Assembly (NCBI GenBank): GCA_023247895.1
Contig: JAHFFP010000004.1
Coordinates: 1 to 35,421 of the forward strand
Length of the DNA stretch: 35,421 nucleotides
Direction: 5' to 3'
Origin: Candidatus Omnitrophota bacterium
GTDB taxonomy: Bacteria; Omnitrophota; Gorgyraeia; Gygaellales; UBA12090
The notes below the pieces were generated by a model. That model did not search any database. It was given only the letters and a program-made list of their open reading frames with translations, and was not told the DNA's origin. Each line of letters opens with the position of its first letter. Position 1 is the first letter of the stretch. This document shows, piece by piece, positions 16,295-23,563 of the stretch. Both the position numbers and the translations under genes were made by a program.

Positions 16295-16915
16295 ATGCAA
16301 AGATTACAACAGAGTATTTACTCAGCACCGTTAGATTTTACTGAGGTAAAGGCTTTATATTGGGATAAAGAATATACCATGCAGGAAATCGCAAACAAAT
16401 TTAACATTTCTTTATGGGCGCTTTACACTTTTATGAAAAAATACAAAATTGAGCGCAGGAATTTTTCTCAAGCAAACTATGTTGTTTCTAATAGGTTAAA
16501 GCCGCAATTTAAAATAAAACAAGAACTTTCATCTCTAGATGAAAAGTTAAAAGTCGCAGGAATTATGCTTTATTGGGCAGAAGGTACATTAAATAGAAAC
16601 ACGGTAGATTTTGTCAATAGCAACCCTCGTATGATAAAGGTATTCCTAAGGTTTTTAAGAGAAATTTGTGGAGTTAGTGAGAAAAGGCTGCGTTTGTATC
16701 TTTATGTGTATTCCTATCATAATGTAAGAACTATAATGGAATATTGGCATAAAGTAACAGCTATTCCCGTTAACCAATTCACAAAGCCATATGTGAGGAA
16801 AGGAAGTTTGAATAAAACGGAAAGAAAATTAGTTTACGGATTGGTGCATATTAGATATAATGATAAACGATTGTTACAAATAATTAAGGATTGGATTGAG
16901 GAATATATAAAATAG
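16295..16915 (+). CDS. HTH plus degenerate LAGLIDADG-like protein (possible homing-endonuclease relative)
   Basis: N-terminal HTH (YTMQEIANKFNISLWALYTFMKKYKI); LKVAGIMLYWAEGTLNRNTVDFVNSNPRMIKVFLRFLREI resembles a single LAGLIDADG-type motif; between two tRNA genes. Confidence 0.5.
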   Translation: MQRLQQSIYSAPLDFTEVKALYWDKEYTMQEIANKFNISLWALYTFMKKYKIERRNFSQANYVVSNRLKPQFKIKQELSSLDEKLKVAGIMLYWAEGTLNRNTVDFVNSNPRMIKVFLRFLREICGVSEKRLRLYLYVYSYHNVRTIMEYWHKVTAIPVNQFTKPYVRKGSLNKTERKLVYGLVHIRYNDKRLLQIIKDWIEEYIK

Positions 16916-16922
16916 TATATAT

Positions 16923-17252
16923 GGGCAGGTACCCAAGCGGCCAAAGGGGACAGACTGTGTAAACGCAGCGCCGGGGAGTAATCTTCGGTGTAAAAGCTGG
17001 TGAATTCAGGGAACCCCTTAGAGTAATATCTTAAGGGCAATCCTGAGCCAAGCCGTCAAAGTTGTATGACTGGAAGGTGCAGAGACTAAGCGCCAGCCGT
17101 CCCGGTTAAAAGGATGATGAGATAGTCCAAGCCTCAAGGTAACTTGAGGGCAGTCGCCACAAAGCGTTGGCGATTGTCCGCCACTAATTCTTTGGTGGAC
17201 ACTTGAAATCTGTTGCACCTGTGCTTCAGAGGTTCGAATCCTCTCCTGCCCA
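16923..17252 (+). tRNA. tRNA-Tyr (GTA), interrupted gene; exons 16923-16958 and 17206-17252; CCA not encoded
   Basis: Acceptor GGGCAGG/CCTGCCC; joined anticodon arm ACAGA-CTGTAAA-TCTGT gives GTA; long variable arm GCACCTGTGC; T arm AGAGGTTCGAATCCTCT. Confidence 0.93.
16959..17205 (+). ncRNA. Group I self-splicing intron (IC3-like) in tRNA-Tyr
   Basis: 5' exon ends in U with P1 pairing CUGU/GCAG (U.G at splice site); CAATCCTGAGCCAAGCC (P4/Q-like), GGTGCAGAGACTA (R) and GAGATAGTCC (S) core sequences with GACTA/TAGTC P7; intron ends in G; P9 hairpins near the 3' end. Confidence 0.92.
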
Positions 17253-17259
17253 TTCTTCT

Positions 17260-17310
17260 TTAATTAGGGACAGACACTAATTAAATTAATTAGTGTCTGT
17301 CCCTAATTAA
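17260..17310. repeat. 51-nt near-perfect palindrome TTAATTAGGGACAGACACTAATTAA-A-TTAATTAGTGTCTGTCCCTAATTAA (REP-like or bidirectional terminator)
   Basis: 25-bp complementary arms with a 1-nt centre between tRNA-Tyr and convergent thpR; overlaps the thpR stop. Confidence 0.9.
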
Positions 17311-18328: not shown

Positions 18329-18391
18329 AGAGATATTATAAACTAATACAAAAGCCTTGACAACCTTAAATTTAGTGATAAAATACACCTA

Positions 18392-18638
18392 ATCTTCGGG
18401 GCAGGGTGAAATTCCCGACCGGCGGTTGCGCTAAAAGCGCACACCAAACCATCAGATCGGTTTGGGTGTAGCGCAGAAGCGCACACCGGCGTTTCCAATA
18501 ACGCCGGGTGTAAAGTCCGCGAGTCTTGCGCGAAAGCGCGGACATGAACCGGTGAAAATCCGGTACCGATAGTTTGCGCTAAAGGCGCACACCAAACCAT
18601 CTGATTGGTTTGGGCCGAAAGTCTAGAGGGGAGAAGAT
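18392..18638 (+). promoter_or_regulatory. FMN riboswitch (RFN element) with enlarged variable stems
   Basis: ATCTTCGGGGCAGGGTGAAATTCCCGACCGGCGGT ... AGTCCGCGAG ... GAACCGGTGAAAATCCGGTACCGATAGT ... AGTCTAGAGGGGAGAAGAT; upstream of ribBA. Confidence 0.95.
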
Positions 18639-18721
18639 TAAGAACGCGGATGGCGCGGATTTATAAAGAAAGTATCCTGCGCAGATTACGCGGATAAAGT
18701 AAAAAACTAAGTATATGTATG

Positions 18722-18750
18722 CCCCGGGATAAAACTCGGGGTTTTTGTTT
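18722..18750 (+). terminator. Intrinsic terminator, probably the riboswitch expression platform
   Basis: CCCCGGGATAAAACTCGGGG stem followed by TTTTTGTTT, ending just before the ribBA ATG. Confidence 0.75.
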
Positions 18751-18753
18751 GCC

Positions 18754-19971
18754 ATGTTTAATACCATTGAAGAAATAATTAAAGATATAGAATCCGGCAA
18801 GATGGTTATTGTTATTGATGATGAAAGCCGAGAAAATGAGGGTGACTTGGTAATGGCTGCATCCGGTGCCACCCAAGAAAAAATAAACTTTATGGCTAAG
18901 TTTGGCCGGGGGCTTGTTTGTGTGCCGATGACCCATGAACGGCTTGAGGTGTTAGGGTTGCATTTGATGATTAATTTTCTACCGCATGAGGCCCCCGGAG
19001 GCTATGAGGACAAGTTTCAGACTGCGTGGCGTATTTCTGTGGACGCGCGCAACGGCATAACTACGGGAATCTCTGCCGGCGACAGGGCGCATACTATTAA
19101 AGTTTTAATTGATGAAAAAAGCAAGCCCCAGGATTTAATTCGGCCAGGGCATATCTTTCCTTTAGCGGCAAAAGAAGGCGGCGTTTTGGTAAGGGCAGGC
19201 CATACCGAGGCTGCGGTGGATTTGGCGCGCCTTGCCGGGATGTATCCTGCGGGGGTGATTTGCGAGATTATGAATGATGACGGCACCATGGCACGCACCC
19301 CTGAGCTAAAGCAATTTGCTAAAACCCATAGCTTAAAGATTTGTACTATTGCCTCGTTAATAGAATATAGGCGTAGAAAAGAGCTCTTGGTAAAAAAGAT
19401 AGAAGAGACAAGGCTGCCAACAGCTTTTGGCGAATTTACCTTGTCTCTTTATCAATCTATGATTGACCAGTCCGACCATTTAGCCTTGGTTATGGGAGAT
19501 ATTAAAAAGGGTGAGCCGACTTTAGTGAGAGTGCATTCGTCTTGTTTAACCGGCGATATCTTTTCTTCTTTACGCTGCGACTGCGGTGAGCAGTTAGAAA
19601 GGGCATTGCAGCTGATTCAGTCTGAAGGAAAAGGGGTGCTTATTTATATGAATCAGGAAGGCCGGGGCATAGGACTGGTAAATAAAATCCATGCCTATGC
19701 TTTGCAGGATAAGGGAATGGATACTGTTGAGGCAAACGAGGCATTGGGGTTTCCCGCGGATTTACGCGATTATGGAATCGGCGCGCAGATTCTGGCTGAT
19801 TTAGGCATAAAAAAGATTCGGCTTCTTACCAATAATCCCCGTAAGATTATTGGCTTGGAAGGGTATGGTTTAGAGGTCGTAGAGAGAGTGGAGATACAGG
19901 TTAAGCCTACAAAGGTTAACAAGAAATATCTTAAGGCCAAGAAAGAAAAATTGGGGCATCTCTTGGCGTAA
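18754..19971 (+). CDS. ribBA: Bifunctional 3,4-dihydroxy-2-butanone-4-phosphate synthase / GTP cyclohydrolase II
   Basis: [62 protein letters not shown]. Confidence 0.96.
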
Positions 19972-20029
19972 CCGTATAACTGCAGATACAAACTCTGATT
20001 ATACGAGAATACTCATTGAGGAGGAAGAA

Positions 20030-20497
20030 ATGATCAAGACAATAGAAGGGCAGTTGATTGCGAAAGGAAAAAGTTTTGGTATTGTTGCCAGCCGTTTCAA
20101 TGATTTTATTACCAAGCAGCTTATTGAGGGATGTATTGACGCGCTTGTACGCCATGGAGCGGATAAGGAGAAGATAGAGTTAGCGCTTGTGCCGGGAGCC
20201 TTCGAAATTCCCCTCGCTGCGCAAAAGTTAGCAAAGAGCAAGCGTTTTGACGCCGTTATCTGTTTAGGCACGGTAATCCGCGGGGCAACGCCGCATTTTG
20301 ACTATATTGCCAGCGAAGTCTCTAAAGGCATTGCCAATGTTTGATTAGATACGGGCTTTCCTATTGTGTTTGGAGTAATTACCGCGGATACCATTGAGCA
20401 GGCGATTGAACGCGCGGGAACCAAAGACGGAAATAAGGGAAAAGACGCGGCGGTTACCGCGATTGAGATGGTCAATCTTTTAAAGGAGCTGAAGTAA
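20030..20497 (+). pseudogene. ribH: 6,7-dimethyl-8-ribityllumazine synthase with one in-frame TGA (20341-20343)
   Basis: [105 protein letters not shown], same frame on both sides. Confidence 0.85.
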
Positions 20498-20520
20498 CGC
20501 TCCGAGCGAAGCGAGGGCAA

Positions 20521-20931
20521 ATGCGTAAACGTACCAAAGCCAGGGAATACGCTTTACAGCTGTTATACCGATACGATATCACTCAGGAAGCTCCTATCGA
20601 TTTTGGGCAATTTTGGCAGGAACAGGATGAGCAGGATAATGAGGTAAAGCTGTTTACGCAAGAACTGGTGTCAGGGGCATTGCAAAAACTCTCTGAGATA
20701 GATAAGAAGATATCCGGGTTTGCCGAGAATTGGGAATTAAACCGTATGGCAGTCGTAGATAGGAATGTGCTGCGTATGGGCAGTTTTGAGCTTCTTTATT
20801 TAAAGGATATTCCCTCAAAAGTTTCTATAAATGAAGCGGTGGATTTAGCCAAGAAATATTCAGGAGAGGAATCGGGAAAGTTTGTTAATGGAATCCTTGA
20901 TCGCATCAAGCAAGATTGTGGTAAAACCTAA
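20521..20931 (+). CDS. nusB: Transcription antitermination factor NusB
   Basis: RKRTKAREYALQLLYRYDI; VVDRNVLRMGSFELLYLKDIPSKVSINEAVDLAKKYSGEESGKFVNGILD. Confidence 0.94.
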   Translation: MRKRTKAREYALQLLYRYDITQEAPIDFGQFWQEQDEQDNEVKLFTQELVSGALQKLSEIDKKISGFAENWELNRMAVVDRNVLRMGSFELLYLKDIPSKVSINEAVDLAKKYSGEESGKFVNGILDRIKQDCGKT

Positions 20932-21010
20932 TTTAATAGGTGCAGGAAGATATATCCCTGTGGATAATCTCTTTCCTAAGAGGCTCAGGAAGGACTATCA
21001 CTCTGGATGA
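20918..21010 (+). CDS. Possible 30-aa small ORF (GTG start) bridging nusB and the PHP gene
   Basis: VVKPNLIGAGRYIPVDNLFPKRLRKDYHSG, overlapping nusB and sharing ATGA with the next gene; no recognised family. Confidence 0.3.
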   Translation: MVKPNLIGAGRYIPVDNLFPKRLRKDYHSG

Positions 21011-21825
21011 TGAAGTATGCCGACCTGCACATTCATACCTGTTATTCAGACGGGACTTTTAGCCCTGCCCATATTATTACCTTAGCCAAAAAAGCAGGTA
21101 TACGTTGTATCAGTATTACCGACCATGATTCGGTTGATACCTATCTAAACCCTTTACCTTCCGAAGAAGATATTGAAATTATTCCGGGCGTGGAATTTAC
21201 CTCAAACTACAACAATATAGAAGTGCATATTTTAGGGTATTTTATTGATTATAGCGCAGCCTGGTTTCAAGAAAGGCTTAAAGCTATGTGCGAGGACCGA
21301 ATTAAACGGATGGAGGCAATGTGCCAAAAGCTTACAGGATTAGGTATGCCTTTAACTATAGAAGAGATATCAAAATTTGCAGGCCATTCTTGCGTGGGGA
21401 GGCTGCATTTGGCTCGAGTTATGGTACAAAAGGGTTTTGTCGCTTATCCTCAAGAGGCATTTAATAAATATATAAGCGATAGCGGCCCTGCCTATGTGTC
21501 TAATTTTAGGCTTACCCCCCGAGAAGTGATTGACGTAATTCTTAAGGCCAAGGGAGTGCCTGTATTGGCACATCCTTATAGCTTGCCTAACCAAGAGTTA
21601 ATCCCTGAGTTTGTTAAAACCGGGCTTATGGGCATAGAAGGTATTTATTCGGAGCATTCTCCTAAGCAAACAGCGCATTATAAAAAGTTAGCTCAAGAAT
21701 ATGATTTGCTTCTTACTGGAGGTTCTGATTTTCATGGAGATGCCAAGCCAGAGGTAAAAATCGGCATGGCTAAGATTCCCTATTTTTTTGTAGAAGCGCT
21801 TAAAAATGCCCGCATAAAGGTGTAA
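21007..21825 (+). CDS. PHP-domain phosphoesterase
   Basis: YADLHIHTCYSDGTFSP; ISITDHDSVDTY; PGVEFTS; LAHPY; GGSDFHGD. Confidence 0.9.
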   Translation: MMKYADLHIHTCYSDGTFSPAHIITLAKKAGIRCISITDHDSVDTYLNPLPSEEDIEIIPGVEFTSNYNNIEVHILGYFIDYSAAWFQERLKAMCEDRIKRMEAMCQKLTGLGMPLTIEEISKFAGHSCVGRLHLARVMVQKGFVAYPQEAFNKYISDSGPAYVSNFRLTPREVIDVILKAKGVPVLAHPYSLPNQELIPEFVKTGLMGIEGIYSEHSPKQTAHYKKLAQEYDLLLTGGSDFHGDAKPEVKIGMAKIPYFFVEALKNARIKV

Positions 21826-21840
21826 GCAGATTAGTCGAAT

Positions 21841-22938
21841 ATGAAAATTTCAAATGAATATTTTATGCAAAAGGCTCTTGCTTTGGCATTGAAAGCCAAA
21901 GGTCAAACGTTTCCTAATCCGCTTGTCGGTGCGCTGGTAGTTAAGGATGGTAGAATTATCGGCAAAGGCTATCATAAAAAAGCAGGCTTACCCCATGCCG
22001 AGGTAGAAGCTATTGAAGATGCCGGAAAAAAAGCAAAAGGTGCTATGCTTTATGTTAGCTTAGAGCCATGCACGCATTACGGCCGCACGCCTCCTTGTGT
22101 GGATAAGATATTGGAGTCTGGGATTAAAAAAGTATTTGCGGGCATGGTTGATCCTAATCCCTTAAATAACGGCAAGGGGATAAAATTACTGCAAGAGCAT
22201 GGCGTAGAAGTTGAAGTTGGTTTTTGTGAAGATAAGGCGCGAAAAATAAATCAGCCTTTTATGAAATGCATCACTAAGAAAATGCCGTTTATTACGGTAA
22301 AGGTAGGGCAGTCTTTGGATGGCAAGATTGCGACAAAAAACGGTGATTCAAAATGGATTACCTCAGATAAAACAAGGGCATTTGCTCATAGTTTACGCCG
22401 GTTTTACGATGGAGTAATGGTGGGAGTGAATACCGTAATTCGCGATGACCCCTTTTTAGTATCGGAATGCCCTGAGCATCCGATAACCAGGATTATTGCT
22501 GATAGCCACCTGAGCACGAGTGCGAAAGCTAATCTGTTTCAGAAGCCTGACCCGGTTATCATCGCTACGCTCAGGGAATCTTTGGGCCAGGAAACAGAGA
22601 ATAGGAATTTGTTAGCTCGGGAGGCAAAGATATTAGAAGTACGGGAAAATAACGGCCAGTTAAATCTCTATGATTTATTTAAAAAATTGGCACGCTTAGG
22701 GATAACTAATGTTTTAGTTGAAGGAGGAGGCTCTTTAATCGGCTCCCTATTTGATTGCAATTTGGTAGATAAAATTTTATTTTTTATTGCGCCTAAGATT
22801 ATCGGAGGTAAGGATTCCATAAGCTCAGTAATGGGTAAAGGGATATCCCGCATAGATCGGGCGGTTAAGTTAAAGGATGTCAGGATTCAGAAGATTGGAG
22901 AAGATATGCTGATTGAAGGCGCGGTTAAGGAATATTGA
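21841..22938 (+). CDS. ribD: Bifunctional riboflavin deaminase/reductase
   Basis: HAEVEAIEDAGKKAKGAMLYVSLEPCTHYGRTPPC; GQSLDGKIATKNGDSKWIT; VEGGGSLIGSLF. Confidence 0.95.
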   Translation: MKISNEYFMQKALALALKAKGQTFPNPLVGALVVKDGRIIGKGYHKKAGLPHAEVEAIEDAGKKAKGAMLYVSLEPCTHYGRTPPCVDKILESGIKKVFAGMVDPNPLNNGKGIKLLQEHGVEVEVGFCEDKARKINQPFMKCITKKMPFITVKVGQSLDGKIATKNGDSKWITSDKTRAFAHSLRRFYDGVMVGVNTVIRDDPFLVSECPEHPITRIIADSHLSTSAKANLFQKPDPVIIATLRESLGQETENRNLLAREAKILEVRENNGQLNLYDLFKKLARLGITNVLVEGGGSLIGSLFDCNLVDKILFFIAPKIIGGKDSISSVMGKGISRIDRAVKLKDVRIQKIGEDMLIEGAVKEY

Positions 22939-22987
22939 GTTTGGGAGCTTTGAGAGTTTAGGAGTTCAGGGAGTTTGGGGAGTTTAG

Positions 22988-23563
22988 ATGTTTACGGGGA
23001 TTGTGGAAGAATTGGGAGTGGTGAAGAATATAGCCCATAAAGGCGCTATTATCGCTTTATCTATTCAAGCTGCCAAGTGCGTAGAAGGCACGAAACTAGG
23101 CGATAGTATTGCGGTTAACGGAGTTTGCCTTACCGTGGTGAAGGCGGAAAGTGGAGAACTAACTTTTGAACTCTTGGTTGAGACCTCAGGGCTTACCAAT
23201 TTAGGTAAGCTAAGAATAGGCCAGAAGGTTAATCTGGAGCGTTCTTTAAGAATAGGCGATAGGCTCTCAGGGCATTTTGTTGCCGGGCATATAGATTGCT
23301 TGGGTGTTATTCGTAATAAAAGCTATGTTGCAGGAAACCTTTGTTTTGAAATAGCGATACCTCAAGAGTGTATAAAATATATTGTTGCTAAGGGCTCTGT
23401 TGCAGTTGACGGCATAAGTTTGACGGTAGCGATCAGGCGTTCAAATATTTTTAGCGTATATATTATCCCCCATACTCTTCAAAATACCACCTTAAGCTTT
23501 AAAGGCCCCTCTGCCCTAGTCAATATAGAATGTGATATTCTTGCCAAATACCGAAAACAATAA
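22988..23563 (+). CDS. ribE: Riboflavin synthase alpha subunit
   Basis: MFTGIVEELG; GDSIAVNGVCLTV; GHFVAGHIDC; VAVDGISLTV duplicated lumazine-binding domains. Confidence 0.95.
   Translation: MFTGIVEELGVVKNIAHKGAIIALSIQAAKCVEGTKLGDSIAVNGVCLTVVKAESGELTFELLVETSGLTNLGKLRIGQKVNLERSLRIGDRLSGHFVAGHIDCLGVIRNKSYVAGNLCFEIAIPQECIKYIVAKGSVAVDGISLTVAIRRSNIFSVYIIPHTLQNTTLSFKGPSALVNIECDILAKYRKQ

Follow-up and report, generated by a model that had tools for sequence, protein, structure and literature searches.

The 35,421-nt stretch of Candidatus Omnitrophota DNA analysed here (the window) carries an FMN riboswitch with repeated hairpins in its variable stems, which raises the question of what these hairpins are and how they came to lie inside a gene-control RNA.

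An FMN riboswitch with three copies of a double-hairpin element

In line with an initial annotation that described the aptamer core as intact, the Rfam FMN model RF00050 matched positions 18388–18642 on the plus strand with 75.7 bits (E 1.3e-15), surpassing its gathering score of 66.2. The match spanned model positions 1–138, that is, the full model, and the conserved core was complete in the alignment. By family score and by its position in the leader of riboflavin genes, the sequence is confirmed, at this level of evidence, as a genuine FMN riboswitch. The features of the locus are as follows.

18357–18384, plus strand: promoter-like site TTGACA-16-TAAAAT (extended TG), upstream of the riboswitch (consensus scan, 11 of 12 positions)
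18388–18642, plus strand: FMN riboswitch aptamer, core intact (RF00050, 75.7 bits)
18428–18469, plus strand: copy A, the first of two P3-loop inserts, of AAACC type (covariance model R1, 60.4 bits; 41-nt repeat; landmarks)
18471–18511, plus strand: copy B, the second P3-loop insert, of GGCG type (R1, 62.6 bits)
18528–18539, plus strand: GCGCGAAAGCGC, end of the P4 hairpin, no element copy (between the P3 and P5 landmarks)
18576–18615, plus strand: copy C, the P6-loop insert, of AAACC type and almost the same as copy A (R1, 37.3 bits; 41-nt repeat)
18721–18742, plus strand: intrinsic terminator of the predicted expression platform (terminator scan)
18745–19971, plus strand: ribBA-type ORF, predicted riboswitch target, 408 aa from TTG, with an ATG at 18754 (ORF list)

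R1 is a covariance model of the element; the A1 structure was assigned manually. The 41-nt repeat that had drawn attention to the locus (18426–18466 and 18574–18614) was present with 93% identity, and a third module variant turned out to be copy B, a divergent copy called by R1. A supposed fourth hairpin, GCGCGAAAGCGC, proved to be the tip of the normal P4 stem-loop, with no R1 match at E ≤ 1. The window riboswitch holds three copies of a double-hairpin element of about 41 nt, two in the P3 loop and one in the P6 loop; the inserted repeat amounts to about 87 nt in P3 and about 46 nt in P6, where many relatives have 2–3 nt. Copies A and C both have a TAAA-type loop that was unseen in the other copies examined, and copy C resembles the P6 copies of three genomes of the same family (G001, G003 and G008). 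Taken together, the common loop and the P6 relatives of copy C point to recent copying within this riboswitch and make P6 to P3, with C preceding A, the likelier direction, as far as can be inferred from the sequences.

The ribBA-type ORF begins no more than 12 nt past the terminator, with ribH-, ribD- and ribE-type ORFs downstream; the riboflavin genes at 18745–23563 comprise ribBA, ribH, nusB, ribD and ribE, with one unrelated ORF among them (names from translations read by eye, without a family search). As read from the sequence, GCCCCG in the terminator is complementary to CGGGGC on the 5′ side of the aptamer, and this pairing is a possible antiterminator candidate. The interval between aptamer and terminator (18643–18702) holds a further repeat, CGCGGATGGCGCGGAT / CGCAGATTACGCGGAT, 35 nt apart.

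Upstream of the riboswitch lies a tRNA-Tyr(GTA) gene (16922–17253) whose anticodon loop is interrupted by a group I intron (RF00028, 99.5 bits); ARAGORN with introns allowed recovered this gene, which a plain tRNA scan overlooks. A 206-aa ORF between tRNA-Thr and the intron-bearing tRNA-Tyr (16295–16915) may be part of the intron's history, and a long palindrome, GGGACAGACACTAATTAA..TTAATTAGTGTCTGTCCC, immediately follows the split gene (17265–17306).

Two unequal hairpins with conserved unpaired bases

The module had been described as a GCGC tetraloop hairpin usually followed by an ACACC...GGGTGT-type stem, and this two-part form was recovered in aligned copies from related genomes. Hairpin 1 has 4–5 base pairs and a loop of about 4–5 nt, often AGAA (in summary form, GCGC-loop-GCGC). 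Hairpin 2 follows directly and reads ACACC N6 TCNNAT N6 G GGTGT, in which the G before GGTGT is bulged. The unit is about 41–44 nt long, and its conserved sequence consists of ACACC, the loop ends TC..AT and GGGTG.

Among 22 sequences, 10 of the 15 base pairs showed compensatory changes on both sides, and none of 500 shuffles equalled the observed covariation. With 133 distinct copies, 14 of the 15 pairs covaried, giving 363 double-change cells in an alignment that leans toward structure because it was fitted to the model. That unrelated GC-rich hairpins came to look alike by chance or convergence is hardly credible: short hairpins of this composition are common, and GCGCGAAAGCGC is such a case, but the fixed architecture and conserved unpaired bases recur in 133 distinct copies, with E values down to 3e-13 per genome.

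Copies that touch a Shine-Dalgarno sequence (see below) showed 7 GU and 7 AC cells, small numbers that give no wobble bias to one strand. Covariation without such a bias is expected if the palindrome is kept at the DNA level. A sign of selection on the RNA strand, sought through wobble asymmetry, was not seen in this class, within the same small numbers. In a permissive Rfam scan of one element, the best match to the element itself was at chance level (about 11 bits, E about 8). At gathering scores, FMN riboswitches were the only families matched among the element loci.

The element is dispersed across Omnitrophota

According to the initial annotation, a lack of further copies in the genome, together with unrelated loops in orthologous riboswitches, would speak against reused modules. 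The first of these was found, since R1 and module searches of the window's own genome (720 kb, 66% complete) yielded no element copy outside the riboswitch. The second was not: in the relatives' aptamers that we compared, orthologous FMN riboswitches reuse the module in both P3 and P6.

A plain DNA search gave matches in 24 of 58 related genomes, many of them at sites outside riboswitches, and R1 found the element in at least 66 of 285 Omnitrophota genomes (E down to 3e-13 per genome); copy and genome counts with R1 are lower bounds because only the best candidates were scored. Twelve element-bearing genomes had from 2 to 99 copies each, again as lower bounds, with tandem arrays in one of them (G047). 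An exact-pattern scan across 84,980 species returned six records, all from Candidatus Omnitrophota or Omnitrophica. As far as the named matches show, the surveyed genomes are mostly metagenome-derived. Carriage by phages or plasmids was considered and rejected: viral contigs were without exact copies, and plasmids and phages matched the aptamer core only. Two genomes of genus g62 (G108 and G125) contain a longer composite repeat, made up of CCATAAATTCTCAAGATAC, the element and more hairpins (L107, L150, L209, L210 and L211).

Filled and empty sites point to mobility

We found reciprocal filled and empty junctions in a pair of genomes from the same genus: L093 (G048) is filled where L230 (G055) is empty, and the reverse holds nearby. 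Further orthologous junctions of this kind are L229/L092, L195/L118 and L075/L223. The best-aligned insertions were clean, adding at most a single T and leaving the target unduplicated; no target-site duplication was found at L229/L092, L093/L230 or L230/L093, which are few junctions at T-rich sites. Compared with an empty site in L093, L074 contains a 42-nt, 14-codon insertion in frame in a protein gene, L081 has tandem copies within an ORF, and comparison of L220 with L216 revealed a copy nested in the loop of another copy. The in-frame copies in L074 and L081 encode AQKRxP... peptides, two of them in tandem in L081.

Mobility is here inferred from presence and absence between species. In the initial annotation, the modules were put down to duplication or to a mobile hairpin inserting at loop positions that tolerate it; given the dispersed repeat, the clean empty sites and the recurrence in P3 and P6, both apparently occurred. 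We considered a Y1 (RAYT) transposase as a partner and rejected it: none of 30 Y1 loci in element-bearing genomes had a copy within 850 nt, a genome with 41 copies (G283) had no Y1 match, and among the compared genomes Y1 presence did not visibly track copy number.

The explanation that we consider likely is that the modules represent copies of a mobile DNA element of Omnitrophota, palindromic and non-autonomous, about 41 nt long and tolerated in peripheral loops. Such an element would be copied to new sites by machinery acting in trans, presumably an enzyme. It would persist where a self-folding insert does little harm, namely in the peripheral loops of riboswitches, the gap between stop codon and Shine-Dalgarno sequence, other hairpin loops and in-frame sites in proteins.

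One end of the element contacts Shine-Dalgarno sequences

Outside riboswitches, the placement of the element is one-sided. The hairpin-1 end lies 0–3 nt from a Shine-Dalgarno sequence with its start codon in 58 of 106 copies, compared with 2 for the other end; under a strict test the counts are 50 and 0, at a background of 0.37% per position. The 106 context copies were taken from the best model matches, and one of them (L097) was later placed in an FMN aptamer; ORFs around them were called mechanically and genes named from reading the translations. A preceding stop codon lies near 39 of the 58 Shine-Dalgarno copies, so that the element fills the gap between neighbouring genes. The genes that follow include enolase, rpoA, ndk, atpE, carB, smc, ribH, panD and others. 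A regulon was considered and rejected, as the 58 downstream genes vary in kind and include only 6 homologous pairs. The remaining copies lie after T-runs, within ORFs or nested in hairpin loops. Two copies (L067 in G048 and L226 in G029) stand straight after a T-run and before homologous 180-aa pyrR-like genes.

The one-sided contact could also mean that the module is a functional RNA, a hairpin serving translation, mRNA stability or protein binding that many genes have recruited; in FMN riboswitches it would then have been domesticated to extend P3 and P6 and tune folding or regulation. Besides the contact itself (58 of 106 versus 2; 50 versus 0 in the strict test), this reading draws on the compensatory changes by which P3 copies in riboswitches keep their pairing, on the clustering of riboswitch copies with one another and on the share of FMN-aptamer copies in the window's own family, both quantified below. 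We nevertheless regard it as unlikely. Most riboswitch copies are oriented to transcription opposite to the Shine-Dalgarno class, and orientation varies within riboswitches; copies at Shine-Dalgarno sites show no more GU than AC on the strand that is transcribed; the downstream genes are diverse and many orthologues are without the element; and copies also occur in coding frames. For the mobile element that we favour, the one-sided contact and the strong excess in FMN aptamers both go beyond plain tolerance, so a target preference or a function has to be added.

Riboswitch copies are probably inherited in part

At least one copy was present in 24 of 54 FMN aptamers examined in the order (the G039 aptamer being left out), where an estimate from a few hundred copies in about 85 Mb gives a chance expectation for 54 aptamers of well below one copy. 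By landmarks, these copies lie in the P3 loop (GGCGGT...AGYCCGC) or the P6 loop (CCGATRGT...AGTCYAGAT) and seldom in P4. Within genus g23 the P3 loop has no insert (G055), hairpin 1 alone (G048), one copy (G032) or two (G031), and G017 carries copies in P3, P6 and the expression platform. Both orientations occur in P6 loops, as in L046 (position 654, minus) versus copy C of the window (plus).

Other structured RNAs served as controls. Two of 45 cobalamin aptamers examined had a copy, at 521–568 of L316 (G029) and 374–417 of L318 (G038), and none of 27 TPP matches had one internally, copies being found only adjoining the aptamer. RNase P RNA was rejected as a second host RNA, with the element in 0 of 26 examined. 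Two RNase P RNAs, L188 (G001) and L193 (G052), were matched over 562 and 575 nt, the others over about 310–480 nt; the extra sequence of these two is not the element.

The riboswitch copies resemble one another. For 24 of the 34 copies in riboswitches, the nearest neighbour in other genomes was again a riboswitch copy, compared with a mean of 8.2 and a maximum of 17 after shuffling. The GGCG stem was present in 11 of the 25 copies in P3 and in 6 of 105 copies outside FMN aptamers (Fisher p ~1e-5). GGCG-type P3 copies are common to families f1, f3, f7, f26 and f36. The P6 copies of f1, the window's own family (G000, G001, G003 and G008), have the AAACYATC type in common, and FMN aptamers hold 8 of the 17 copies in that family. 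These comparisons suggest that the FMN-aptamer excess is owed in part to descent, and on our best reading the copies in riboswitch loops are partly inherited and not all new insertions.

An account in which descent does all the work, with vertical inheritance and local P3/P6 duplication only, would make the modules an old extension of the riboswitch arms and their likeness to repeats elsewhere secondary. It fits the GGCG-type P3 copies that recur across families, the AAACC-type P6 copies of f1 and the lack of copies elsewhere in the window's own genome. Against it, many P3 and P6 copies match dispersed types, in both orientations and in varying number, the P3 loops of most relatives are 2–3 nt long, and the same architecture is dispersed by tens in other genomes; we hold it to be very unlikely. 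Under the mobile-element reading, which accommodates some inheritance, copy B in P3 would represent a type common to other families and copy C in P6 one that its own family has in common; copy A, nearly identical to copy C, would be a recent product of copying between these two loops.

Folding of the inserts

If the modules are tolerated insertions, they would fold alone as extensions of P3 and P6, leaving the FMN-binding core and the terminator switch intact, and would be neutral for FMN binding. In a plain thermodynamic fold, pairing between copies A and C gave −112.1 kcal/mol versus −106.3 kcal/mol for the aptamer with self-folded copies, 5.8 better for the pairing. The aptamer fold would be favoured by local folding of the growing transcript and by binding of FMN, although this riboswitch may misfold through A:C pairing or form a P3–P6 contact. 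The loops of copies A and C, AUCAGAU and AUCUGAU, are exactly complementary; since the loops follow ATC-N-GAT, this would arise by chance about one time in four and is no evidence alone. It seems quite unlikely that a phylum-specific element with an inbuilt preference for DNA next to Shine-Dalgarno sites and for hairpin loops was domesticated in FMN riboswitches, where its complementary P3 and P6 loops would tune the switch by touching each other or by pairing into a rival duplex.

Discussion

A mobile repeat that has repeatedly colonised one class of gene-control RNA provides a natural insertion series, with none, half, one, or two or more modules in P3 and P6, in which the structural tolerance of a riboswitch can be followed. 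The same series allows asking whether inserts gain function. The fixed contact with Shine-Dalgarno sequences before many unrelated genes of an uncultured phylum suggests a new target-site rule for a mobile element or a new kind of leader element.

In its core and in the riboflavin genes behind it, the host RNA is like other RF00050 riboswitches; it is the P3 and P6 loops that are enlarged here. Cyanobacterial STRR are dispersed short repeats that also extend a stem of RNase P RNA; the host of the Omnitrophota element is instead a riboswitch, and the 26 RNase P RNAs were without a copy. The double-hairpin elements (DHE) of Allomyces fold as a pair of neighbouring hairpins and occupy variable loops in structural RNAs. 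Sponge mitochondria contain repetitive hairpin elements (RHE), short units that fold into hairpins (PMC2800124). Both RHE and DHE, likened here by description only, are mitochondrial, whereas the present element is bacterial and has conserved ACACC, TCNNAT and GGGTGT.

REP sequences and REPINs are short imperfect palindromes with a GT(A/G)G head, associated with REP-associated tyrosine transposases (PMC2817692, PMC3116915). The Omnitrophota element is similar in being an imperfect palindrome with a mismatch or bulge, in its many copies and tandem clusters and in the possible formation of single-stranded DNA hairpins. However, its unit consists of two unequal hairpins and is also present within riboswitch aptamers and coding frames. 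At the stem foot, none of the 106 copies showed a GT(A/G)G head (GTAG or GTGG); CTCCTT or TT flanks one side and T/A the opposite one. None of the 30 Y1 (RAYT) loci was flanked by copies. Rickettsia palindromic elements (RPE), of about 150 bp, lie between genes and in frame in proteins (PMC10969869). The Omnitrophota element is likewise a palindromic repeat with intergenic and in-frame insertions (L074 and L081), but at about 41 nt it is shorter than RPE, forms a double hairpin and lies mostly beside Shine-Dalgarno sites. Unlike MITEs with terminal inverted repeats and target duplication, it showed no target duplication at the few junctions compared. The literature searched, mostly without subscription papers, contained no description of palindromic repeats in Omnitrophota or in riboswitches. 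On the sequence comparisons made here, we rate the element as a new family of small palindromic mobile repeat that is REP- and RPE-like but belongs to neither family. Two of its habits are unusual: it is found repeatedly inside riboswitch loops, and it meets Shine-Dalgarno sequences from one side.
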